A stretch of 64,000 bases of DNA from Halalkalicoccus jeotgali B3 (GTDB lineage Archaea > Halobacteriota > Halobacteria > Halobacteriales > Halalkalicoccaceae), in contig NC_014297.1 of the NCBI RefSeq assembly GCF_000196895.1, positions 1,246,119 to 1,310,118 of the forward strand. The letters run 5' to 3'. Under the pieces are notes generated by a model. It did not search any database and had not been told where the DNA came from. It worked only from the letters and a program-made list of their open reading frames with translations. Below are positions 5,539 to 48,527 of this stretch, piece after piece. A program made the translations under genes and the position numbers. Within the stretch, counting starts at the first letter, position 1. Every line of letters starts with the position of its first letter.

Positions 5539-6987
5539 TCACATGAAGTCGCCCAGACCCGACTGCGAGTCACTGGCGTCGGCCTGCTCGTCGTCGTCGG
5601 TTTCCATCGACTCGGTATCGGCGTCAGGTGACGCCGACTTCTCGGCCGTCGGGTCCTCTTCGGCGTACGTTCGGCGCGCACCCTCGAATGCCCCGCCCGA
5701 GCTCTCGACAGCGGCCTCCTCGCGTAGGCGCTCTGCGTCCGCGACGATGTCCTGGACCTTGTTGGTGTCCTTCCCGCTGCCGGTGACGAAGGCGACGTGT
5801 TCGGCGTCCAGTTCGTATCGGGCGGTCATCGCCACCGTGAGTTCGCGATTCTTACAGTGATGGGTCATCGCGGCGAGGTAGGGCAGGACCTCTCGGCGGG
5901 CACTCGACATGCTCACGCCACCGGATTCGGCGATCTTTTGGGCGACGTAGTCCCGGCGGTCGCGCGCACCCCGGGAACTCCCGAGTTTGCGCCAGTAACT
6001 CGGCGGGCCATACCGGGTCCATCCCCCTTTCGGCTCGCGGCGGGCGGCGGCGACCCCGGCGGTCATGTTGTCGCCCGCGTAGCGCCAGTACGAGTAGTTC
6101 TGCGTCGCACGCACCCGCCCGAGCCACCGGTCCGCCCGCGCGAGGGCGCTGTAGGCGTCGGCGAGTTCCCTCCCCGCGAAGTCCTTGGGGACGTTGTCCT
6201 CGATCCAGTTGATGAGGTCGTCGGGCGTCTCGTCGACCTCATAGGAGGCATAGAGCGCCTCCTGTGCCCCTTTCTCCTTGATCACCTCGTCGAGGAAGTC
6301 GAAGATCCCCTTGGTGCGGTCGCGCTCACCCGTGACGACCGCCTCGGCGGTGAGGCGATCCTCGCGTTCGGCGAGCGCCTGCAGGTCGTTGACCGCCGAG
6401 CGCAGGTCGCCGTCGGTGTTTTCGGCGATCGCCTCCAGAGCTTCGGCTTCGAATTCGATGCCTTCCTGTCGGCAGATGTCCCGCAACACGGGGACGATCG
6501 AGCGCTTCGAGACGTCCCGAAACTCGACGGTTTCACAGCTGTTTCGCAGGTTCTGGGACATGTCGTAGAACTCGTTTGCGATCAGGACAACCGGCTGGTT
6601 CGCCGACTTGATTACGTCCGTGACCGCGCGCGAGCCGCCGTAGTCGACGTTCCCGTGGAAGTTGTCTGCTTCGTCGAGGATCACAAGCCGCCGGCCCGCG
6701 GTCCCGCCGGTGAGGGTGCCGCTCTTTGCCGCCTCGCCGGCGATCCGTTTCACGATGTCGGCCTTTCGCTGATCCGAGGCGTTGAGTTCGATCGTCGGCC
6801 AGCCTAGGTCGTTCGCAAGCGCGTGGGCCGCCGAGGTCTTCCCGACGCCGGGGCTCCCGTGGAGGATGACCGCTTTCTGGTGGTCCTCCCAGCTCTCGGC
6901 CCACTCGCGGAACGCGTCGCGGGCCTTGTCGTTGCCCCGCACCTCCGACAGCGTCGAGGGGCGGTACGTCTCCGTCCAATCGGCCAT
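5539..6987 (-). CDS. rfcL: Replication factor C large subunit
   Basis: 482-residue clamp-loader AAA+ subunit. It starts MADWTETYRPSTLSEVRGN, with Walker A HGSPGVGKTS (43-52), Walker B LVILDEADN (101-109) and sensor-1 region LIANEFYD. The C-terminal helical region is followed by an acidic, low-complexity tail that ends QSGLGDFM, a PCNA-interacting peptide. RFC-L joins the small subunits to open the PCNA ring and load it on primed DNA. The start at 6987 is the family start; upstream in-frame Met codons add unrelated residues. It is divergent from the SGNH hydrolase gene. Confidence 0.95.
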   Translation of the reverse strand: MADWTETYRPSTLSEVRGNDKARDAFREWAESWEDHQKAVILHGSPGVGKTSAAHALANDLGWPTIELNASDQRKADIVKRIAGEAAKSGTLTGGTAGRRLVILDEADNFHGNVDYGGSRAVTDVIKSANQPVVLIANEFYDMSQNLRNSCETVEFRDVSKRSIVPVLRDICRQEGIEFEAEALEAIAENTDGDLRSAVNDLQALAEREDRLTAEAVVTGERDRTKGIFDFLDEVIKEKGAQEALYASYEVDETPDDLINWIEDNVPKDFAGRELADAYSALARADRWLGRVRATQNYSYWRYAGDNMTAGVAAARREPKGGWTRYGPPSYWRKLGSSRGARDRRDYVAQKIAESGGVSMSSARREVLPYLAAMTHHCKNRELTVAMTARYELDAEHVAFVTGSGKDTNKVQDIVADAERLREEAAVESSGGAFEGARRTYAEEDPTAEKSASPDADTESMETDDDEQADASDSQSGLGDFM

Positions 6988-7082
6988 TACCGGAGGGAGG
7001 GCCGAGGCGCGTTTAGTGGTTGCGAACTCCTGAACGGAATCCGGCAGAACGCCTTTATGCCCCGTCCGGATAGCCGGAAGCG

Positions 7083-8336
7083 ATGGTAACCGTCGTTCCA
7101 ATAGCGCTCGGTGTCGTCGCTCTCGCAATCGCCGCGGAGGTCGTCTCCCAGCGCGCCCTCGAACGCTACGGAGAGGGACTGGGTAGCATGCCGACCGTGG
7201 TGCTGGAGGAGTTCCCCGAGATCAGCTCCGGGCTGCTCGGAAAGTACACCAGCTTCGACCCCGATCTCGGGTGGGTCCCCCAGCCCGATCAGCAAAAACA
7301 GAAAGACACGGGCGATCACCTCCCCGGCGAGGAGGTCGAGAGCGTCGTCACCTACTCGACCGACGAGTACGGCAGCCGGGTCTGTCCCGCCGCTGACCGC
7401 GATGAGGGCCGCGGCGCGGTCTCGACGTACGGCGACTCGTACTGCTTTTGCCGGGAGGTCGACGACGAGGATACCTTCCAGAACCGCCTCGCACGGAGGA
7501 TAGACGCCCACGTCGGCAACTACGGCGGGGGTAACTACGGCCTCGATCAGGCGCTCTTGCGGATGAAACGCCAGTACCCCGAGGACCCGACCGATCACGT
7601 CTGTATCGTCGTGACCGCCTCCTCGATTGCCCGGATCCTCTCGGTCTGGAAGCACTACCAGGAGTTCGGGAACGTGCTGGCGGTCAAACCGCGCTACGAA
7701 CTCCGGGACGGCGAACTCGAACTCCTCGAGAGCCCCGTCGACGAGAAAGAAGACCTCCTTGACCTCGAATCCCGTGCGCCCTTCCTCCGGACCCACGACG
7801 GCCACTACGAGAACTGGTTCAAACCGCACCTCGCCAGTTTCCCCTACGCAACCGACTTCCTCGACGACCCCGACCAGGTCAAGTACGCGCTCTACGCCGC
7901 GGGAATGGACCTCGAAAGCGAGTACGGGATCTCGATCCCGGGGGTCGACCTCGGCGCGCGCCAGGCCGCGACGACCCTGCGGCTCGAACAGTCCCGCGTG
8001 CGCTATCACGAGCGACTGTTCGAGGAGAAGGCGGACCTCTTCGACGCGCTGATCGGCGAGTTCGTTTCGTACGCCGACGAACACGACTTCACGCCGACGT
8101 TCGTCATGGTCCAGCAGCTCCGATACGCAGCCCACGAGGCCGACCGTGGCCCGATCTACGGCGACCTCATGGACCGGCTCGACGAGCGCTATCCCGACCT
8201 GGAAACGATCGACATGGCCGAGCACCTCTCGGGCGACCCCGAGTCTCTGTACGTCCAGCGCGGCGAGGGCGGTCACTACAGCCCCGAGACCAACGCACGA
8301 ATCGCCGAGGTGCTCGAAGAGCGTCTGATCGAGTGA
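7083..8336 (+). CDS. Membrane-anchored SGNH/GDSL-type hydrolase
   Basis: 417 residues. A hydrophobic N-terminal segment (about 5-20) can act as an uncleaved anchor, placing the rest outside. SGNH-like blocks are visible: block I STYGDSYCF with S119, a Gly/Asn-rich block NYGGGNYGLDQ (146-155), and a late HYSPETNAR with H398 as block V. Such domains often act as esterases on acetylated glycans or lipids. The closest match in style is with archaeal and bacterial cell-surface acyl-ester hydrolases, but no substrate can be given. It is single, followed after about 40 bases by an acetyltransferase gene. Confidence 0.68.
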   Translation: MVTVVPIALGVVALAIAAEVVSQRALERYGEGLGSMPTVVLEEFPEISSGLLGKYTSFDPDLGWVPQPDQQKQKDTGDHLPGEEVESVVTYSTDEYGSRVCPAADRDEGRGAVSTYGDSYCFCREVDDEDTFQNRLARRIDAHVGNYGGGNYGLDQALLRMKRQYPEDPTDHVCIVVTASSIARILSVWKHYQEFGNVLAVKPRYELRDGELELLESPVDEKEDLLDLESRAPFLRTHDGHYENWFKPHLASFPYATDFLDDPDQVKYALYAAGMDLESEYGISIPGVDLGARQAATTLRLEQSRVRYHERLFEEKADLFDALIGEFVSYADEHDFTPTFVMVQQLRYAAHEADRGPIYGDLMDRLDERYPDLETIDMAEHLSGDPESLYVQRGEGGHYSPETNARIAEVLEERLIE

Positions 8337-34673: not shown

Positions 34674-35306
34674 TCATCGGTCCTCGAGGACGACCGCGAC
34701 CTCGTTGGTCCGCATGAACGGCGGGGTCAGCGGCGGATCGTAGCGCAACAGGACCGGCTCGCCGACGGTGGCGATCCCACGGTCGGCGAGCGCGTCGGCG
34801 AGACGAGCCGTAATCCGCCGCGTCCGGTCCTCGGTCGCGTACCACGAGAACGACGCGATCCCGAGGGTTCGCTCGGGGTCGACGACGAGCCGTACCGACG
34901 GGTCCGTGGGCAGCGGTGCGTCCTCGGGGTCGTATTCCGACGGGAGGTAAAACGCCATCCGAACGCTTCCGTCCGCGGGCACGTCGGTGGTTCGGACCGG
35001 CGCGGTCATCGGGATCTCGACGCCCTCGGTTCTGTCGGTCCGGACCGGGGCGGTCATCGCGATCTCCTCGCGTCGCTCGTTCGCACCGCTGATGTACTCG
35101 AACAGCCGGCCGAAGGCCACGCGCTCGTCGGGGGCGGTGGTCTCGACGGCTATCGTCGGGGGATAGCGACGGAGTTCGACGCCGTCGAACCGATCGAGCA
35201 CCTCGTACGGGACGCGCTCGGCGGCACGTGCCCGATGGAGCCGTCTCGCTGAAACGGCGGTGAAGAGGGCGATCCCGGCGGCGAGGGCGACGGTTCGGCG
35301 GTTCAT
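34674..35306 (-). CDS. SOUL/HBP heme-binding family protein
   Basis: 210 residues from ATG 35306. An N-terminal hydrophobic stretch (about 5-18) may act as signal or anchor. The SOUL domain covers about 30-208, with VELRRYPPTIAVETT at the start, the paired EIAMTAPVRT and EIPMTAPVRT strands and the late FSWYAT...RRITARLADAL pattern. Members bind tetrapyrroles or act in membranes, but the archaeal role is unknown. An upstream in-frame Met is present and is not favoured because the added residues have no homology pattern. Confidence 0.85.
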   Translation of the reverse strand: MNRRTVALAAGIALFTAVSARRLHRARAAERVPYEVLDRFDGVELRRYPPTIAVETTAPDERVAFGRLFEYISGANERREEIAMTAPVRTDRTEGVEIPMTAPVRTTDVPADGSVRMAFYLPSEYDPEDAPLPTDPSVRLVVDPERTLGIASFSWYATEDRTRRITARLADALADRGIATVGEPVLLRYDPPLTPPFMRTNEVAVVLEDR

Positions 35307-41671: not shown

Positions 41672-42682
41672 ATGACGCTTGCGATCGACGCGACCGATCT
41701 CGAAAAGGAGTACGGCGACGTCCGGGCGCTCGACGGCCTCTCGCTGTCGGTCGAGGCCGGGGAGTTCTTCGGTCTTCTCGGGCCGAACGGTGCGGGCAAG
41801 ACCACGTTCATCAACACGCTGGTCGGACTGGTCAGAAAGACCGGCGGCGAGGTCAGCGTCTTCGGCGAGGACGTCGAGGACGACTACCGGGCGGTGCGCG
41901 ACAGCATCGGGCTGGCCCCACAGGAATTCAACGTCGACCGGTTTTTCCCGATCCGCGAGGTGTTGATGCACAAGGCGGGCTACCATGGCGTGAGCGAGGC
42001 CGAACGGGAGCGACGGGCCGACGAGGCGCTCAAACTCGTCGGGATCTACGACAAGCGAAACACCCGTTTCGACTGGCTCTCGGGTGGGATGAAGCGCCGG
42101 CTCCTGCTCGCGCGTGCGATCGTCACCGAGCCGGACCTCCTGATCCTGGACGAGCCGACCGCGGGCGTCGACGTCCAGTTGCGCCACGACCTCTGGGAGG
42201 TGATCAACCGGCTGAACGACGAGGGGACGACGATCCTTCTCACTACGCACTACATCGAGGAGGCCGAACGCCTCTGTGACCGGGTCGCGATCATGGACTC
42301 GGGCCGGAAGGTCACGGTCGCCACACCCGAGGAACTGACCGAGCGGGGCAGCGACACGATCACCGTCGAACTGCGCGACCCGCCAGCGAACGCCCCGCCC
42401 CTCGACGGGATCGAAGCGATCGAGGGGACGCGACTGGAGGGGGACCGACTGGCCGTCCGGGTGGCCGGGAGCGGCGGTCGGGTCGCCCCCCGAGTGCTCA
42501 ACGCCCTCGAAGACAGGGGTCACGAGATCACCGACATCGAGATCTCGCGCACGTCGCTGGAGGAGATCTTCGTCGAACTCACCGAAGGACAACGCGGGAG
42601 CGGTGACCCCGAGGAGAACGACGAAACCGACGAGGACGGTGTGACCGACGGGACGGCGCGTCTCGCTGGGGAGGCGCGCTGA
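41672..42682 (+). CDS. ABC-2 exporter ATP-binding protein
   Basis: 336 residues from ATG 41672. It carries Walker [10 protein letters not shown] (37-45), signature LSGGMKRRL, Walker B LLILDEPTAGVD and the H-loop THYIEEAERL. A C-terminal extension of about 120 residues is typical of DrrA/NodI-like exporter ATPases. It powers export by the permease encoded immediately after; its stop shares one base with the permease start (TGATG). The ATPase is intact, but its partner permease is broken by the 5,072-bp element, so in this configuration the exporter should lack a full permease. Confidence 0.93.
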   Translation: MTLAIDATDLEKEYGDVRALDGLSLSVEAGEFFGLLGPNGAGKTTFINTLVGLVRKTGGEVSVFGEDVEDDYRAVRDSIGLAPQEFNVDRFFPIREVLMHKAGYHGVSEAERERRADEALKLVGIYDKRNTRFDWLSGGMKRRLLLARAIVTEPDLLILDEPTAGVDVQLRHDLWEVINRLNDEGTTILLTTHYIEEAERLCDRVAIMDSGRKVTVATPEELTERGSDTITVELRDPPANAPPLDGIEAIEGTRLEGDRLAVRVAGSGGRVAPRVLNALEDRGHEITDIEISRTSLEEIFVELTEGQRGSGDPEENDETDEDGVTDGTARLAGEAR

Positions 42683-42950
42683 TGGCCGCAAACCCCCTCT
42701 CGGCGCGCTTTTATACGCTGCTCGAACGCGAGGTCCAGCGGTTCGTCCGCCGGCCGTGGAACACCTTCCTCCCGCCGATGATCACGAACGTACTCTACTT
42801 CTCCGTCTTCGGGGTGATCCTCGGGACGCGCATTCAGGAGATCCAGGGCTTCTCGTACATCCTGTTTCTCCTGCCCGGGCTCGTGGTGCTGGGTGCGATC
42901 TCGAACGCCTTCGAGAACGCCTCGTTTTCGATCTTTCACGGCCGGTGGAA

Positions 42951-42960
42951 CGAGTACATC
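42951..42960 (+). repeat. attL core (10-bp direct repeat)
   Basis: CGAGTACATC. The host side has the arm GTGGAA (42945-42950) and the element side ATCAATCT (42958-42965). The same ten bases occur at 48023-48032. They encode N-E-Y-I of the permease with the bases on either side. Confidence 0.85.
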
Positions 42961-42970
42961 AATCTAAACG

Positions 42971-42983
42971 TGTGTAAAAGGTT
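42971..42983 (+). repeat. Left arm-type motif of the attachment site
   Basis: TGTGTAAAAGGTT, close to the reverse complement of AACCTTTACACAA at 47986-47998 (one base longer here). Both lie just inside the element, in opposite orientation, and so could be integrase or accessory-protein arm sites. In addition GTGTRYA follows both core arms after four bases. Confidence 0.55.
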
Positions 42984-42987
42984 GTGA

Positions 42988-43229
42988 GTACTTATAATAT
43001 AAAGAGTATTCTCAGTATCACCTCAGTCGTGTCGAGATCCTTGGATTCTTGGATTCATATCAGTCTTCATATCTTTTTTATTTGGCGAGAGAATCCTTCC
43101 TTCTCGTATCCCGTCCGACCTGACTTCAGAAATCCCTCTACTCCTCGTTCAGTATAATGAAAAGTCTGTACACATATTATGTAACATTTCCGAAAGCTTT
43201 AAGTATCAGGAGATTGTAACTATATACGT
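42988..43229. other. Left-end non-coding region of the element
   Basis: About 240 AT-rich bases without a convincing gene. The right end holds a CTTTAAGTAT promoter element (43197-43206), 24-33 bases ahead of the first element gene. A TAATATAAAG stretch near 42997-43006 could be another TATA box reading inwards. Confidence 0.5.
43197..43206 (+). promoter_or_regulatory. Promoter of the first element gene
   Basis: CGAAAG followed by CTTTAAGTAT gives a BRE-plus-TATA arrangement about 24-33 bases ahead of ATG 43230. Confidence 0.55.
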
Positions 43230-43373
43230 ATGACGCATAATATCATTCGAATGAATCAAAGCGAGAAGGATCGGCTCATGAAATCTATCGAAAAGAGGTA
43301 CGGCGACCCCAATCGTATTTCTCACGGGCTCGCTATTGCTGAATTATCGGAGGAGGCTACAAAGAATGAGTGA
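43230..43373 (+). CDS. 47-residue element protein, unknown
   Basis: ATG 43230 to TGA 43371-43373. The product is 47 residues and mainly helical, with a basic start (MTHNIIRMNQSEKDRLMKSIEKRYG) and an acidic end. It may be a small DNA-binding or regulatory protein; no family is recognised. The next gene starts eight bases before its stop, so translation of the two is likely coupled. Codon choice is AT-rich like the rest of the element. Confidence 0.55.
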   Translation: MTHNIIRMNQSEKDRLMKSIEKRYGDPNRISHGLAIAELSEEATKNE

Positions 43374-43671
43374 TACTCAAATGGCGCGAATGGCTGTCGC
43401 TCTATCGAGTCACTCTCCGAAGTATAAGGAGTATTCCGAAGAAGAAGAAGTGATCGAAGAATTACTTAAGGAGGAGGTCGAGCATACGACGAAACTACTT
43501 GAATCGAGAATTGCTATTAGTTCGAACGACGAAGATACTCAGTCGATTAGTGAGTTGAAGAAGTCTCTGCCGTCTACTGATACAGTCACCGAATTGGAGG
43601 AGTCTCATGGCTCTGAGAAGGCACAGCACATTCTCGATAAACAGAAAGAATTGCGAGAATTGCGAAAATAA
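43366..43671 (+). CDS. 101-residue acidic helical element protein, unknown
   Basis: ATG 43366 is preceded by GGAGGAGG (43349-43356). The product (MSDTQMARMAVALSS...) is very rich in Glu, Ser and Lys, has no hydrophobic helix and probably forms long helices or a coiled coil (EEEEVIEELLKEEVEHTTKLLESR). It overlaps the 47-residue gene by eight bases. No homology recognised. A role in copy control or partition is possible, but nothing in the sequence proves it. Confidence 0.6.
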   Translation: MSDTQMARMAVALSSHSPKYKEYSEEEEVIEELLKEEVEHTTKLLESRIAISSNDEDTQSISELKKSLPSTDTVTELEESHGSEKAQHILDKQKELRELRK

Positions 43672-43827
43672 TTACATAGAATGATCTCTCTAATTTAATT
43701 TACTGAAAGAAAACTGCAAGTGTGATCGACACACCGCATATCCTATGAATTCCATATTGTGGTATGTGACGGTGCTACTTAAATCTGTCGATCACTTGTC
43801 AGGAAGACGAGAGCATTCAATTCATGA
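43672..43827. other. Promoter region of the Rep gene
   Basis: An AT-rich stretch of about 155 bases with a GCTACTTAAAT element near 43774-43784, about 45 bases ahead of ATG 43828. No other feature is visible. Confidence 0.4.
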
Positions 43828-44613
43828 ATGTCAACTACAGATACTACAAGTGTACAAACGTATAGTGATCGACCGAATATTCCCATTAAGGGTAAAGAAT
43901 GGAGCGACGTAGAGTATTCTTTCAATAAAAAATTGAGTAAGACAGCACCTCATATTTATATGGGCACCGCGACTCCCCGCTTCACAAAGCCGCATGGAGA
44001 TTATCATTACGCGAGGATCAAAGCAGTATCCGATTACTGTGAAGAACACTATGATCCTCTCACGACCGTCTGGCTCTCTCTTCAAGCCGACGAGAAAATC
44101 AGGGGAGAGTGGGTAGATCCATTGATGCACGACGATGGTTTCAGATCTAATGCCGTGAAACAATCCCTCTTTCGTGTGAGAAAGAAACTCGACGTAGACG
44201 AATGGGCTGGCTGTTGGCTGATGAGTCCAAGAAGAACAGGCTATAGCCACCGGCACTATGCTCTATGGATTAACAAGGAGGTCGAAGTAAGTGATTTTCA
44301 TTCGGTGATCGATAGCCATGTACGTAATCACCCGACGGCTTCGAGTGAGAAAAACCAGTATAGAGACGCGATTCAGATTCGGCAAGGCGATGAGGTGAAA
44401 GGATTACCTGCCGAGATTGCTCATAATCTTCCCGAGATCGGAGCCTCTACTGATGTGAGAAGCGTCGATGAAGCGAGACGCTGGTGCTCGATGTACTGGT
44501 TCGATGATCGGATTCGATTTCAAGAATTAGGGAGCTTCAGAGAGTATGCCGAAGACAGTCGTCCAGAGAGAGAAGGTGTGTTCAAACACGGGCGAGGTTG
44601 GGTGAATGAATGA
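43828..44613 (+). CDS. rep: Putative HUH-type rolling-circle replication initiator (Rep)
   Basis: 261 residues. The middle contains the HUH metal motif in YSHRHYALWINKE (H141, H143), preceded by a strand with the motif-1-like VWLSLQAD (81-88). A Tyr-bearing helix DEARRWCSMYWFDDR (Y223) could supply the nicking Tyr. The order motif 1, HUH, Tyr fits Rep proteins of small haloarchaeal plasmids and pleolipoviruses, which nick the origin and start rolling-circle replication. The match is by motif order only. Many positive charges and Trp residues are unusual for the host proteome. The gene is followed by a TGTTACGATCCTT copy of the repeat used in the 45.2-kb cluster. Confidence 0.6.
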   Translation: MSTTDTTSVQTYSDRPNIPIKGKEWSDVEYSFNKKLSKTAPHIYMGTATPRFTKPHGDYHYARIKAVSDYCEEHYDPLTTVWLSLQADEKIRGEWVDPLMHDDGFRSNAVKQSLFRVRKKLDVDEWAGCWLMSPRRTGYSHRHYALWINKEVEVSDFHSVIDSHVRNHPTASSEKNQYRDAIQIRQGDEVKGLPAEIAHNLPEIGASTDVRSVDEARRWCSMYWFDDRIRFQELGSFREYAEDSRPEREGVFKHGRGWVNE

Positions 44614-44615
44614 AG

Positions 44616-44628
44616 TGTTACGATCCTT
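44616..44628 (+). repeat. Outlying copy of the origin-like repeat
   Basis: TGTTACGATCCTT starts three bases after the rep stop codon; the same 13 bases occur at 45251-45263 inside the repeat cluster. A short hairpin ATCCTtcAGGAT follows immediately. Confidence 0.5.
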
Positions 44629-44720
44629 CAGGATGTCATAGAACTCTTACCATGGTCGCTATTTTCACGGGTAGTCAGGACGAATTGACCGATATGTAGA
44701 GCCTGCGAATCTATCAGAAA

Positions 44721-44731
44721 CTATTTTATCC
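44721..44731 (+). promoter_or_regulatory. TATA box of the element membrane protein gene
   Basis: CTATTTTATCC lies 21-31 bases ahead of ATG 44752, in the normal place for a leaderless promoter. Confidence 0.5.
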
Positions 44732-44751
44732 GATAAACGACAATAGAAAAC

Positions 44752-45105
44752 ATGGCATGGATGGCTCAAGGGCTGGTTTTACTGTTTTTCTTGGTGCTTA
44801 CTGGCCAGTATGCGTATCGGGAAGCGAAGAGGGAGAACCGGTCGTCACCGAGGCTTCGAGGGATCTTCTGGATAGTGTTCGGTATCCGAGGGGCCGTCAC
44901 CTATCTTGTTCAGATCCAAAAACGAGAGTGGAAGCGATTAGGATGGATTGGATTTTCGCTACTACTCTTTGCGGTGTGGGCCGTCGGAACCTTCGGCTTC
45001 TGGGGACTAAGCGGTGGTTTTCATCTTTGGGGAGGACTGTTCGCTGGGCTCCTCGTCCTGTATTGGCAATTCAACCTCGAACAGGAGGGGGATGAGTTTA
45101 GATAG
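44752..45105 (+). CDS. 117-residue element membrane protein
   Basis: Three hydrophobic segments (about 5-20, 38-52, 64-105, the last possibly two helices) with basic loops (KRENRSSPRLRG, QKREWKRLGW) between. The tail is short and acidic. Many Trp and Gly residues give a plasmid-like composition. No family recognised; possibilities include plasmid maintenance, surface exclusion or virus-like membrane protein. Confidence 0.55.
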   Translation: MAWMAQGLVLLFFLVLTGQYAYREAKRENRSSPRLRGIFWIVFGIRGAVTYLVQIQKREWKRLGWIGFSLLLFAVWAVGTFGFWGLSGGFHLWGGLFAGLLVLYWQFNLEQEGDEFR

Positions 45106-45486
45106 CTCACCATCGAGATATAACCGTGAAGTAGTGCCACTATATCTACCGATTCCACCCCTCCGAAGAGAGGGTATGAACTGTTCTATGACACCCTCAT
45201 CCTTATTATGTGGTTCATGTGATAACACAGAATCCATCGAATCATCGATCTGTTACGATCCTTATTATGTGGTTCAGAGAGATGAGAGTATCCTTCGATC
45301 CTCAAATCATATAATGGTCATCGAATAAATCACTCAATCCATGAACCATATAATAGTCATCGTAACAGATCAATTACTCCTCGTATCTGACTCTATGATT
45401 ACATGGACGATAGTATCGATCAGCGGGCGATGGTCCGACGATCTCGATATAGAGAATCCTCATACCACATACATGACATCGATCCA
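45106..45486. repeat. Inverted and direct repeat cluster: candidate replication origin or partition site
   Basis: 380 bases without a gene. Copies of one motif are: direct, TCCTTATTATGTGGTTCA at 45199-45216; direct, a 30-base version at 45247-45276 (starts GATCTGTTACGATCC, ends ATTATGTGGTTCA); inverted partial, CATATAATGGTCATCG at 45308-45323; inverted full, 45342-45371. The 30-base copies at 45247-45276 and 45342-45371 form arms that match at all but about four positions, with a 65-base loop. This could fold as a cruciform. Its place after rep and between oppositely oriented genes suits an origin, iteron cluster or bidirectional terminator. Confidence 0.65.
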
Positions 45487-45993
45487 TCACCGCTCCTCGA
45501 AGTGACGGCAGTCGAGAGAGTGAGTGAGCTGATCGAATCCTCCGAGTTTCGAGAGTAGTTCGTGTTCACAGTCACGGCACTTCTCGTATTCCTCGCCTCC
45601 CTGATCCTCCGGTTCGATGTGAGTACTGTATGCCTTCTGAAGAGCCTCACGTCCATCCTGAGAGCCGCCGTCCGTCACGAGAGGCGTAGACATTGCCACC
45701 ATGATCGGCGCTCTTAGGAGGCAAGCGAGGCCGTGTTTACACATCCCTGAATGGTACTCGAAGGCCTTGCACGTGCAACGAACGGGCATCCCGTCCTCGA
45801 AGTGAACGCTGTAGGTATGGCCATTCTCGCCCTCATACGACGTGTTGTGAACGTTCACGACCTCGTGGGAGGCGATGCAGGTGAACTGATAGCAGTCGTC
45901 CTGTGCCTTCAAGAGAGCGCCGCTGGTAGCTCCCTCGATCAGGTCCTTCTTCGATCCGATACCGTTTTCCGATCCGCTTGTGTCTACTGACAT
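45487..45993 (-). CDS. SWIM zinc-finger protein
   Basis: 168 residues from ATG 45993 (a GTG at 46011 would add six). The SWIM motif is CTCKAFEYHSGMCKH (C73, C75, C85, H87), following a beta strand typical of that fold (YSVHFEDGMPVRC). A second possible zinc site near the C-terminus has CRDC and later CRHF. SWIM domains bind DNA or proteins and are common on haloarchaeal plasmids and viruses. Immediately upstream lies a perfect six-base hairpin GGGTTG-ATCC-CAACCC, which may be an operator. Its stop abuts the repeat cluster. Confidence 0.8.
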   Translation of the reverse strand: MSVDTSGSENGIGSKKDLIEGATSGALLKAQDDCYQFTCIASHEVVNVHNTSYEGENGHTYSVHFEDGMPVRCTCKAFEYHSGMCKHGLACLLRAPIMVAMSTPLVTDGGSQDGREALQKAYSTHIEPEDQGGEEYEKCRDCEHELLSKLGGFDQLTHSLDCRHFEER

Positions 45994-46009
45994 GGGTTGA
46001 TCCCAACCC
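45994..46009. promoter_or_regulatory. Hairpin directly upstream of the SWIM gene
   Basis: GGGTTG, ATCC, CAACCC make a perfect 6-bp stem with a 4-base loop, ending next to ATG 45993. A second near-perfect repeat GGCTTCGGTG / CACCGGAGCC lies at about 46012-46037. Both could be operator sites or block translation. Role unproven. Confidence 0.5.
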
Positions 46010-46097
46010 ACGGCTTCGGTGCTGCAAACACCGGAGCCACTTTCTATAATGGCTCGCCGTGAGTTACATCAACCTATGAGCCATACCCATATAAAGC

Positions 46098-46115
46098 TAT
46101 CTGAATAATACTGAT
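46098..46115 (+). repeat. 18-bp direct repeat, copy 1
   Basis: TATCTGAATAATACTGAT, identical to the copy at 46341-46358. In both copies AGATATAC- or TATATATA-type AT tracts and TATCCTA follow, so the similarity extends further in a relaxed form. Confidence 0.7.
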
Positions 46116-46340
46116 ATGATATACGTATCCTATAGATCCTGTGCTCCGTTCTGAGAGCGATGAGTCTGAAGAGGTCATATGATACTCGTATCAATGCCAT
46201 TCCTCTGAGGATGCCAGCACGTTCCATAGAATTGAATCCTACTCATACTCATTCCCTCAATCGAGGGCTTACTCTCTCCAATATATGAAACATCTGAGCA
46301 TTACTGTATATAGATATAAACACTTTGCATGTCTTTATAG

Positions 46341-46358
46341 TATCTGAATAATACTGAT
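46341..46358 (+). repeat. 18-bp direct repeat, copy 2
   Basis: Second exact copy, 243 bases from the first. The downstream flank ATAAGTTATATATATATCCTA resembles the flank of copy 1. Confidence 0.7.
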
Positions 46359-46450
46359 AAGTTATATATATATCCTACATATGTAAAACGACCCCATGTA
46401 AGTATGAAGATGCTGTATTCCGACAATAGAGTACACTGAAAGCTCACATC

Positions 46451-47452
46451 TCAATATGGTGTGAATGCTCTTGCCGCCTTCTTATGATCCTCTTCTGCCA
46501 TCTTCATATAGATTTCAGTTGTTTCAAGCTTTTCATGTCCGAGGAGAGCTTGAAGATTCCTCGGATTAATGCCACTCTTGATAGCCTGCACCGCGTAACT
46601 GTGTCGAAGGGTGTGGCTTGTAATCATATTGAGCTTTCTCTTACCACCTGCATAGCTCCCGGCAGTTGATTGTAAGTCGGCAGACTCTGCCGCTCCTTTC
46701 ACAATTTGATTAATATAATCCGTGGTAACATGAGGATTCGTCTGTGTTGGGAAGAGATACGTATCAATATCTTTACCTACTAAGTTCTTCCCTCTGTATC
46801 CATCAAGGTATTCATCCATCAGAAAATCGATATACTCAGGGTTGTAGTACACAGTTCGAGAAGACGGTGACTTGGATTTGAAGGAGGGGATGTATATCGA
46901 TGTCTCCTGTCTGTCAATCTCATCCATTTCGATAGACGCAAGTTCTCCGACTCGCATTCCTGTGTTGAATTGAAGTCGTATAAGAAGCTCATTTCTTCCG
47001 ATAGGTGACGGCACATTTCTACAGAGAGTATCGATCTCATCAGGCGAGAGATATTGAATACCCTCTTTATTTTGAGACTTCCGAGATTTCTTCGTATCTC
47101 CTCTGAGGATTTTCTTGTCGTCCTTGTCGAAGCCCTCGTATGGATTTTCAGGCACCTTCGGCATGTCGAAGATGTCGGTCATCTTCGCACACTCCTGATA
47201 GAAGACGCTCACTGCCGAGACGTGAGTCGTGATCGTCGTCGGAGCATAGTCGTCTCTTGAGAGTTGCGTAGTATATGCGCGTAAATCTGCCGTTTGTGCA
47301 TCCCATACAGTTTTTTCTCTTGATTCTTCAAGAAATGTCTTCCAATGTTTGATATTCCTCACATATCTCGATGCCGTCGCTCCCGTTTCCGAACGAGAGA
47401 TGTCATTCCGACGATGCTCGAATTCTTCGAGGATTCCATTCCAGTTCATCAT
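46451..47452 (-). CDS. int: Tyrosine integrase of the element
   Basis: 333 residues. The N-terminal SAM-like DNA-binding domain covers about 5-105. The catalytic domain has Arg in FNTGMRVGELA (R167), Lys candidates in FKSKS (192-194), HTLRHSYA (H280, R283), LGHEKLETT (H306) and the nucleophile Tyr in TEIYMKM (Y315). All key residues are present, so it should be active. It is coupled to the upstream gene by an ATGA overlap (47449-47452). Its natural substrates are probably the two core sites at 42951 and 48023. It most resembles XerC/D-type integrases of haloarchaeal mobile elements. Confidence 0.92.
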   Translation of the reverse strand: MMNWNGILEEFEHRRNDISRSETGATASRYVRNIKHWKTFLEESREKTVWDAQTADLRAYTTQLSRDDYAPTTITTHVSAVSVFYQECAKMTDIFDMPKVPENPYEGFDKDDKKILRGDTKKSRKSQNKEGIQYLSPDEIDTLCRNVPSPIGRNELLIRLQFNTGMRVGELASIEMDEIDRQETSIYIPSFKSKSPSSRTVYYNPEYIDFLMDEYLDGYRGKNLVGKDIDTYLFPTQTNPHVTTDYINQIVKGAAESADLQSTAGSYAGGKRKLNMITSHTLRHSYAVQAIKSGINPRNLQALLGHEKLETTEIYMKMAEEDHKKAARAFTPY

Positions 47453-47958
47453 TCTCGTTTAATGTACACAGTTTTCTCGTTACTGTGGAGTCGCTCTACT
47501 CGGCTCGTCATATTTATGATATTATCAAGAGCGTCCTCCACCGTCTCCAAATCAGCACCTATAGATGATGCGATTTCATCTGCCGTGATCCCGTATTCCG
47601 CGTAATACCTTGTTCGATCAGCCGGAGGTACAGGGATCGCGTATTGAAGAAGGATCTTTGATAGATCATACAGTTCTCCTTCAGTTGATTGCTGATTATC
47701 CATATGGGTGACAGTCGTCTGAATATCAGAGACGTTTTCCTCCAATTCATTGAGCGCACTCATCAACTCTTCAGACGCGCCTGTGTCTCTCTGAGGAGCC
47801 TGTCGATTCTGTGAATGTAATCCTTCGAGTTCTCTGAAAACGCTTGTACGGATCAATTCTGCAAGGCTCTCATACTCTCCTGAGAGCACAGCATCTTCCC
47901 ATTTCTCTTTCCTCTGTTCATTGACGACGAGAGCAATTCGTGGTTTTTCTGAAGGCAT
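47449..47958 (-). CDS. RHH/winged-helix protein coupled to the integrase
   Basis: 169 residues. The first 50 (RIALVVNEQRKEKWEDAVLSGEYESLAELIRTSVFREL) look like a ribbon-helix-helix. A linker follows, then a helical stretch rich in Glu and Gln, then a winged-helix-like region (about 105-168) with AEYGITADEIASSIGADLETVEDALDNI. Start lies 64 bases from the right core. The four-base overlap with int implies one transcript. In the pleolipovirus SNJ2 type of module, small genes in the integrase operon help or steer recombination, so an excision or direction factor is a plausible role, not shown here. Confidence 0.7.
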   Translation of the reverse strand: MPSEKPRIALVVNEQRKEKWEDAVLSGEYESLAELIRTSVFRELEGLHSQNRQAPQRDTGASEELMSALNELEENVSDIQTTVTHMDNQQSTEGELYDLSKILLQYAIPVPPADRTRYYAEYGITADEIASSIGADLETVEDALDNIINMTSRVERLHSNEKTVYIKRE

Positions 47959-47985
47959 ACCTTCTCTTTATCGAGGAGCACCTTG

Positions 47986-47998
47986 AACCTTTACACAA
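47986..47998 (-). repeat. Right arm-type motif of the attachment site
   Basis: AACCTTTACACAA on the plus strand, the inverted match of TGTGTAAAAGGTT at 42971-42983. It lies 25 bases from the core and ahead of the RHH gene, so it might also regulate the int operon. Confidence 0.55.
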
Positions 47999-48022
47999 CT
48001 TCTTGTACACCATCAGATTGAT

Positions 48023-48032
48023 CGAGTACATC
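48023..48032 (+). repeat. attR core (10-bp direct repeat)
   Basis: CGAGTACATC, identical to 42951-42960. The element side has the arm AGATTGAT (48015-48022) and the host side ATCCAC (48030-48035). Joined to the left end it gives the host site with arms GTGGAA / ATCCAC around CGAGTAC. Confidence 0.85.
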
Positions 48033-48527
48033 CACGAGACGATCACCTCGCCGCTTTCCTACACCGAGATGGTGCTTGCGTACGTCCTCTCGAGCGCTTC
48101 CAGAGGGATCGTCGTCGGGATCATCATCGCGGTCATCGGCGCGTTCTTCACCCCGGTGGGGGTCGAACACCCCCTGTACCTCGTGGCCTTTCTACTCGTG
48201 GTCACGCTGCTGTTTGCCGCCCTCGGAATCGTCGGTGGGCTGGTCGCCGAGGACTTCGACCACCTGACAGTGATGAACCAGTTCATCCTCCGCCCGCTGG
48301 TGTTTTTCGGCGGCGTCTTCTACTCGCTCGAGATCCTGCCGTCGCTGTGGCGGACCGCCTCGCTGTTAAACCCGATGGTCTACATGGTCAACGGCGTGCG
48401 CTATGGGTTTCTTGGTTACTCCGACGTGGACCCGAACGCCGCGCTTGCGGTACTCTCGGGGCTGACGCTCGCGGTGATCGCGCTCGATATCGCCATGTTC
48501 GCACGGGGCTACGGGCTGACGGACTGA
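48023..48527 (+). pseudogene. ABC-2 permease, C-terminal fragment
   Basis: Host permease resumes here in the same codon phase: HETITSPLSYTEMVLAYVLSSASRGIVVG and four hydrophobic helices follow, ending ARGYGLTD. It has no good start of its own; an in-frame Met inside the element opens the frame but has no family match and overlaps the RHH gene. Rejoined with 42682-42950 it makes a full permease of 257 residues. Confidence 0.88.

Follow-up and report, generated by a model that had tools for sequence, protein, structure and literature searches.

A 5-kb integrative element in a haloarchaeal ABC permease gene, and relatives that insert at the same codon and in some cases carry a second permease

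The window analyzed here, a 64,000-nucleotide stretch of the Halalkalicoccus jeotgali B3 genome, contains an ABC transporter operon whose permease gene is interrupted by an element of 5,072 bp (42951-48022). The ends of the element are two copies of a 10-bp direct repeat, CGAGTACATC (42951-42960 and 48023-48032); the 64-kb window holds a third copy at 35091 on the minus strand and no others. GC content changes from about 65% in the window to 45% between the repeats. Because the window sits in a 2.8-Mb contig, an assembly join is unlikely. The features of the locus, in window coordinates, are the following:

41672..42682, plus strand, ATP-binding subunit of an ABC transporter, in an operon with the target permease (TGATG overlap), assigned from the ORF and its start context
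42682..42987, plus strand, 5' half of the permease gene, cut by the element; its final 8 codons are element DNA
42951..42957, plus strand, 7-bp core CGAGTAC in attL, inside the 10-bp repeat
42958..42986, plus strand, left attP arm, an inverted repeat of 47994-48022
43230..43373, plus strand, 47-aa ORF with no family match
43336..43671, plus strand, 111-aa ORF with no family match, its start likely further downstream
43828..44613, plus strand, rolling-circle Rep-like protein (PF07232/DUF1424; weak, 25.1 bits against a cutoff of 23), with an HRH motif
44752..45105, plus strand, small membrane protein
45199..45379, no strand, non-coding repeat block with a 19-nt direct repeat and a 38-nt inverted repeat
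45487..46011, minus strand, SWIM zinc-finger protein (PF04434, 26.3 bits against a cutoff of 19.6)
46451..47452, minus strand, Xer-like tyrosine integrase (PF00589, 4.8e-26; PF02899) with SAM-like and catalytic domains
47449..47958, minus strand, 169-aa DNA-binding-like partner, overlapping the integrase start
47994..48022, plus strand, right attP arm
48023..48029, plus strand, 7-bp core CGAGTAC in attR, inside the 10-bp repeat 48023-48032
48023..48527, plus strand, 3' part of the permease gene, in frame once joined to 42950

The left part of the permease reads W-N-E-Y-I and then runs into the element as N-L-N-V-C-K-R-L-stop. The stop eight codons past the first repeat (42951), and the resumption of the gene after the second (48023), had been described in the original prediction and were confirmed. 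Joining 42950 to 48023 gave a single stop-free frame of 257 aa plus stop containing W-N-E-Y-I-H-E-T-I-T, with the insertion point at codon 90 of 257, in the middle of the gene. The joined protein matched PF01061 (9e-31) and NF011648/PRK15066 above cutoff; judged by these profiles, the split gene is an ABC-2 permease, YadH-type by NF011648. In nearly all of the related loci that were checked, an ATPase homologue was located directly 5' of the permease.

The original prediction proposed an integrative element with a tyrosine integrase in a protein gene, repaired exactly in frame on excision, and staked this on relatives with an intact permease and NEYIHET at the junction. All six other genomes of the genus carried an uninterrupted full-length permease (87-95% amino acid identity, no stops), with the junction motif NEYIHET in five and NKYIHET in the sixth. 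The joined 43-nt junction of the window was identical to that of L004 and one base different from that of L003. Both att direct repeats at the two ends and an empty site in relatives are thus present for the window element, which supports the prediction, and the repaired frame matches the uninterrupted gene of the congeners.

Within the element, the integrase retained its catalytic residues R167-K194-H280-R283-H306-Y315, all invariant columns in alignment A1. Family searches with the 169-aa partner gave no confident match; its fold appears to combine a ribbon-helix-helix-like start, a coiled coil, and a C-terminal HTH-like part, and a homologue was present at the same place in most related elements. 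The DNA at 44752-45105 was 73% identical to a gene on the Haloarcula halophila plasmid NZ_CP119562, on which the membrane-protein gene adjoins an ArdC-like gene. No plasmid record searched held the whole element, the only match being the piece around the small membrane-protein gene, and a search with attP among viral contigs gave no match. Neither a pleolipovirus spike/membrane protein nor an NTPase module was found among the main ORFs scanned in this 5-kb element, which these ORFs do not mark as a pleolipovirus provirus. Its gene content suggests that the element is probably a small integrative plasmid of the rolling-circle type. The repeat block at 45199-45379, which includes two copies of the 19-nt direct repeat ATCCTTATTATGTGGTTCA, could be a replication origin.

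Reconstruction of the window attP placed CGAGTAC between 29-bp inverted arms with 22 pairing positions, the first 8 of them without a mismatch. The local-alignment test of this pairing was significant (22/29 reached in 0 of 1000 shuffles); an ungapped test of outer-arm symmetry on the window was not. Inverted arms were seen in G225, G517, and G518 as well (p 0.006 or less), and the arm inverted-repeat test was not significant in G271, G510, G432, G153, and G228. The chromosomal attB, GTGGAACGAGTACATCCAC, is imperfectly palindromic, with symmetry at 5 of the 6 inner positions, and GGA-N9-TCC or a near variant surrounds the core in most relatives.

As the window element is without a replacement permease of the kind described below, the host most likely lacks the transporter for as long as the element is in place. 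The same lack, together with the intact gene retained by all congeners and the failure to find a circular form in the viral contigs or plasmid records searched, could indicate a decaying remnant that is unable to leave, with the permease reduced to a pseudogene. We consider such decay rather unlikely, as the integrase frame and its six catalytic residues are intact, both att sites are intact, and the joined frame is free of stops.

Relatives were collected by an integrase search of 394 genomes of the order, followed by family searches and a scan of named genomes. In other genera and families, five more elements were found to interrupt this permease at the codon used by the window element:

Haloarchaeobius sp. 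FL176 (L062), 3.3 kb
Halorientalis persicus (L078/L105), 2.7 kb
G225 (L063), 4.3 kb
G510 (L103), 3.5 kb
G517 (L104), 5.0 kb

The six permease-splitting elements differ in length (2.7-5.1 kb) and in gene sets. Their flanks join in frame in five cases, and G225 has one extra A at attR. The core CGAGTAC occurs in attL and attR of five insertions and is replaced by CGACTAC at both ends of the sixth, G510. This identity of the core at both ends while the arms diverge (GTCC versus ATCC in G518) fits a 7-bp overlap region. The integrases of the other five elements were 43-46% identical to that of the window, indicating no recent kinship between the window element and these five.

Since core and target are common to all six, a single ancestral insertion with vertical inheritance might be considered. 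This is extremely improbable: the hosts span four families in which the permease is intact in most members, empty sites lie between the hosts, the window integrase is no closer to the rest than the identity given above, and close integrase relatives hit other genes. A regulated interruption, like skin/sigK or the comK prophage, in which cued excision switches the permease on, would account for a mid-gene insertion with exact repair and for independent elements at one codon. We judge it very unlikely, because the permease is interrupted in none of the six congeners, the contents of the elements differ, and relatives offset the damage with a second permease.

The insertion site coincides with the most constant part of the target. 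Among 758 windows of the permease gene compared across 30 relatives, the 14-mer TGGAACGAGTACAT, which codes W-N-E-Y-I, ranked first in conservation and was exact in 24 of the 30. At the threshold used, 280 of the 394 genomes contained the permease itself. By analogy, the use of this target would parallel that of tRNA genes, a short site being kept constant by selection on the host.

Related integrases were associated with other protein genes. Some of these are candidate targets assigned from a repeat and one joined frame, and gene names besides the permease are our reading of translations and not library matches. A related element in Halorubrum xinjiangense (L064, reverse-oriented 5745 and 10872) occupies the last codons of aEF-2 (PQSIDYF-stop) with the end restored; aEF-2 is also the target of a thaumarchaeal casposon (PMC6563490). 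A related element in Halopenitus persicus lies inside a histidine kinase gene, and others are in an ABC exporter gene, close to the end of a gene for DoxX, and, in G432, at the end of a gene whose product terminates in RYILG-stop. Secretion-type ATPases are also hit, one of them in both G335 and G455; two related elements, L073 and L107, have the common target AELMTEANYLNP in a type II/IV secretion-type ATPase. Three genomes contain related elements (L068, L069, and L074) in genes for Old Yellow Enzyme-type flavin oxidoreductases; these lie at the MCQ(YS) motif, where the left half ends in SPMCQ followed by a common element tail, NEYIQR. No tRNA gene was found at any of the 25 integrase loci scanned. 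The earlier remark that protein-gene attachment is uncommon in archaea is fair in general but does not extend to this integrase clade, for which protein genes look like the rule on the loci read.

Profile and structure comparisons place the integrase nearest to the XerA/XerC/pNOB8-like archaeal recombinases, with which it has a palindromic site in common; the closest solved structure was XerA 5hxy (3e-23). It differs from them in that the clade is mobile, uses an attB in a protein gene, and has its own partner gene, and its score against the XerA profile NF040815 (137 bits) is under the equivalog cutoff of 220. The SNJ2-type integrases of betapleolipoviruses are likewise haloarchaeal tyrosine integrases with short att sites (13-14 bp) and small partner proteins. 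In these enzymes, however, the His/TrpIII site is substituted (PMC7547991), HisIII being Ala or Val, and the target is a tRNA gene, while the present clade retains HisIII (LLGH with H306 invariant) and makes no use of tRNA. Membership in the SNJ2 type was ruled out by the score of 21.6 bits (E 0.027) against the HHPV4 integrase, the retention of H306, and the lack of a tRNA at the loci examined; in the tree, the SNJ2 type forms a very long outlying branch. Comparison with phages returned only distant matches, under 30% identity among the matches listed, and comparison with viral contigs returned a single 24% match.

Archaeal attachment to protein genes is on record for virus BJ1 in the HMG-CoA reductase gene and for Msmi-Pro1, and 14 of 68 thaumarchaeal elements lie at protein genes, in their 3' ends (PMC8371274, PMC6563490). 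These elements likewise combine a tyrosine integrase, short att repeats (from 8 bp), and a protein-gene target, and some of their target genes are recurrent, as here. In contrast to the thaumarchaeal cases, which are 3'-distal and replace the stop in the worked example (PMC6563490, PMC8371274), the present insertion is at codon 90 of 257, six distant hosts share the site, and a full second gene comes with two of the elements. In the literature searched, most subscription journals excepted, no report was found of elements from several families attaching repeatedly in mid-gene at a single conserved codon, nor of a full replacement gene inside attL.

That second gene was found in the G225 and G517 elements: attL is followed directly by a complete second permease on the same strand, and its start codon and the stop codon of the truncated host gene overlap (ATGA in G517, 8 bp in G225). 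Between the two copies identity is 77%; they are approximately 64% identical to most host permeases of the split genes and 58% identical to that of G271, with a GC content of 47-52%. Their identity of 90% at second versus 42% at third codon positions indicates purifying selection (dN 0.17, dS saturated), and the replacement permeases are presumably functional. The integrases of G225 and G517 are not sister, and their hosts belong to different families.

A third copy was located in G317 (L128, G317:C29:26000-40000, about 6904-7978), between decayed native halves at a locus in which no integrase was found. The order there is the ATPase gene, the native N half (internally deleted and extending to WNEYV), 14 attP-arm-like codons, an intact permease that begins in an ATGA overlap and shares 77% identity with the copy in G517, and the decayed native C-terminus. 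The attP-arm remnant scored 28/48 against G225 (0 of 2000 shuffles) and 26/48 against G517. We read this locus as a fossil gene swap, in which an element would have replaced the gene and then been lost.

All three replacement copies fell into one clade of the permease tree (100/100). Permeases of this clade are also resident in several genera where the first clade is otherwise the one present; at the threshold used, matches were obtained in 41 of 394 genomes, most without a scar, and among the loci read no scar was found at resident second-clade copies other than G317. An element-specific permease clade was rejected, as the copies cluster together with permeases resident in other haloarchaea; element copies may therefore derive by capture from such hosts. 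G343 gave two permease matches, and its locus C81 is an intact, ordinary permease locus. The residence of this clade in many haloarchaea would also suit extra permeases that are plain cargo or a tandem paralogue and have no part in repair of the target. We find that account unlikely, given that two elements with non-sister integrases, in hosts of different families, place the copy immediately inside attL with its start overlapping the truncated stop, and that in G317 the second permease alone survives. Replacement by the element family, which would integrate at the most conserved permease motif, install its own full-length version in the operon, and fix the swap on its later loss, leaving the patchy second clade as its product, has in our estimation an even chance of being correct. 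Spread of the second clade through such swaps is possible.

SXT/R391 ICEs, at the 5' end of prfC, and prophages that restore icd or tRNA 3' ends replace the terminal part of their target. They too integrate in conserved genes and limit the damage; unlike them, the elements described here supply a complete divergent homologue in the middle of an operon. Integration of SXT/R391 ICEs at prfC has been described (PMC2791158).

We propose, with a probability of about 0.9, that the window element integrated through recombination of its attP with the permease half-palindrome by a Xer-like tyrosine integrase, that excision rejoins the gene, and that some relatives replace it. The sequences themselves document the boundaries, the empty sites and the repair of the frame, the recurrence of the target, the conservation of the core, the replacement copies, and one fossil. 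In the proposed mechanism, the 29-bp inverted arms around CGAGTAC would recombine with the natural half-palindrome GTGGAACGAGTACATCCAC, which codes the invariant W-N-E-Y-I motif. The clade would take as attB short DNA words coding invariant protein motifs, and such words would be available in most haloarchaea, as tRNA genes are for other integrases. Insertion disrupts the permease and excision would rejoin it exactly; the integrase likely catalyzes both directions, the 169-aa partner may aid or steer it, and the element likely replicates as a circle. In some same-site relatives, the whole second permease just inside attL would be translated from the interrupted operon and so replace the gene, and loss of the rest of the element would make the swap permanent.

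A 2021 review of archaeal tyrosine recombinases described recombination at protein-gene sites as untested and asked about dyad symmetry (PMC8371274, section 19). The present clade suits this question, since it offers a single attB word with six natural insertions, together with empty sites and measured dyads. It illustrates two ways of limiting the harm of insertion into a gene, by restoring its 3' end with an exact copy or by bringing along a complete substitute, the latter being a concrete route by which a divergent homologue could replace a chromosomal gene. The short attB could also be portable for haloarchaeal genetics. Finally, similar-looking 90-aa proteins were observed in two of the permease-splitting elements, at 10997-11266 in L062 and 6934-7206 in L078.
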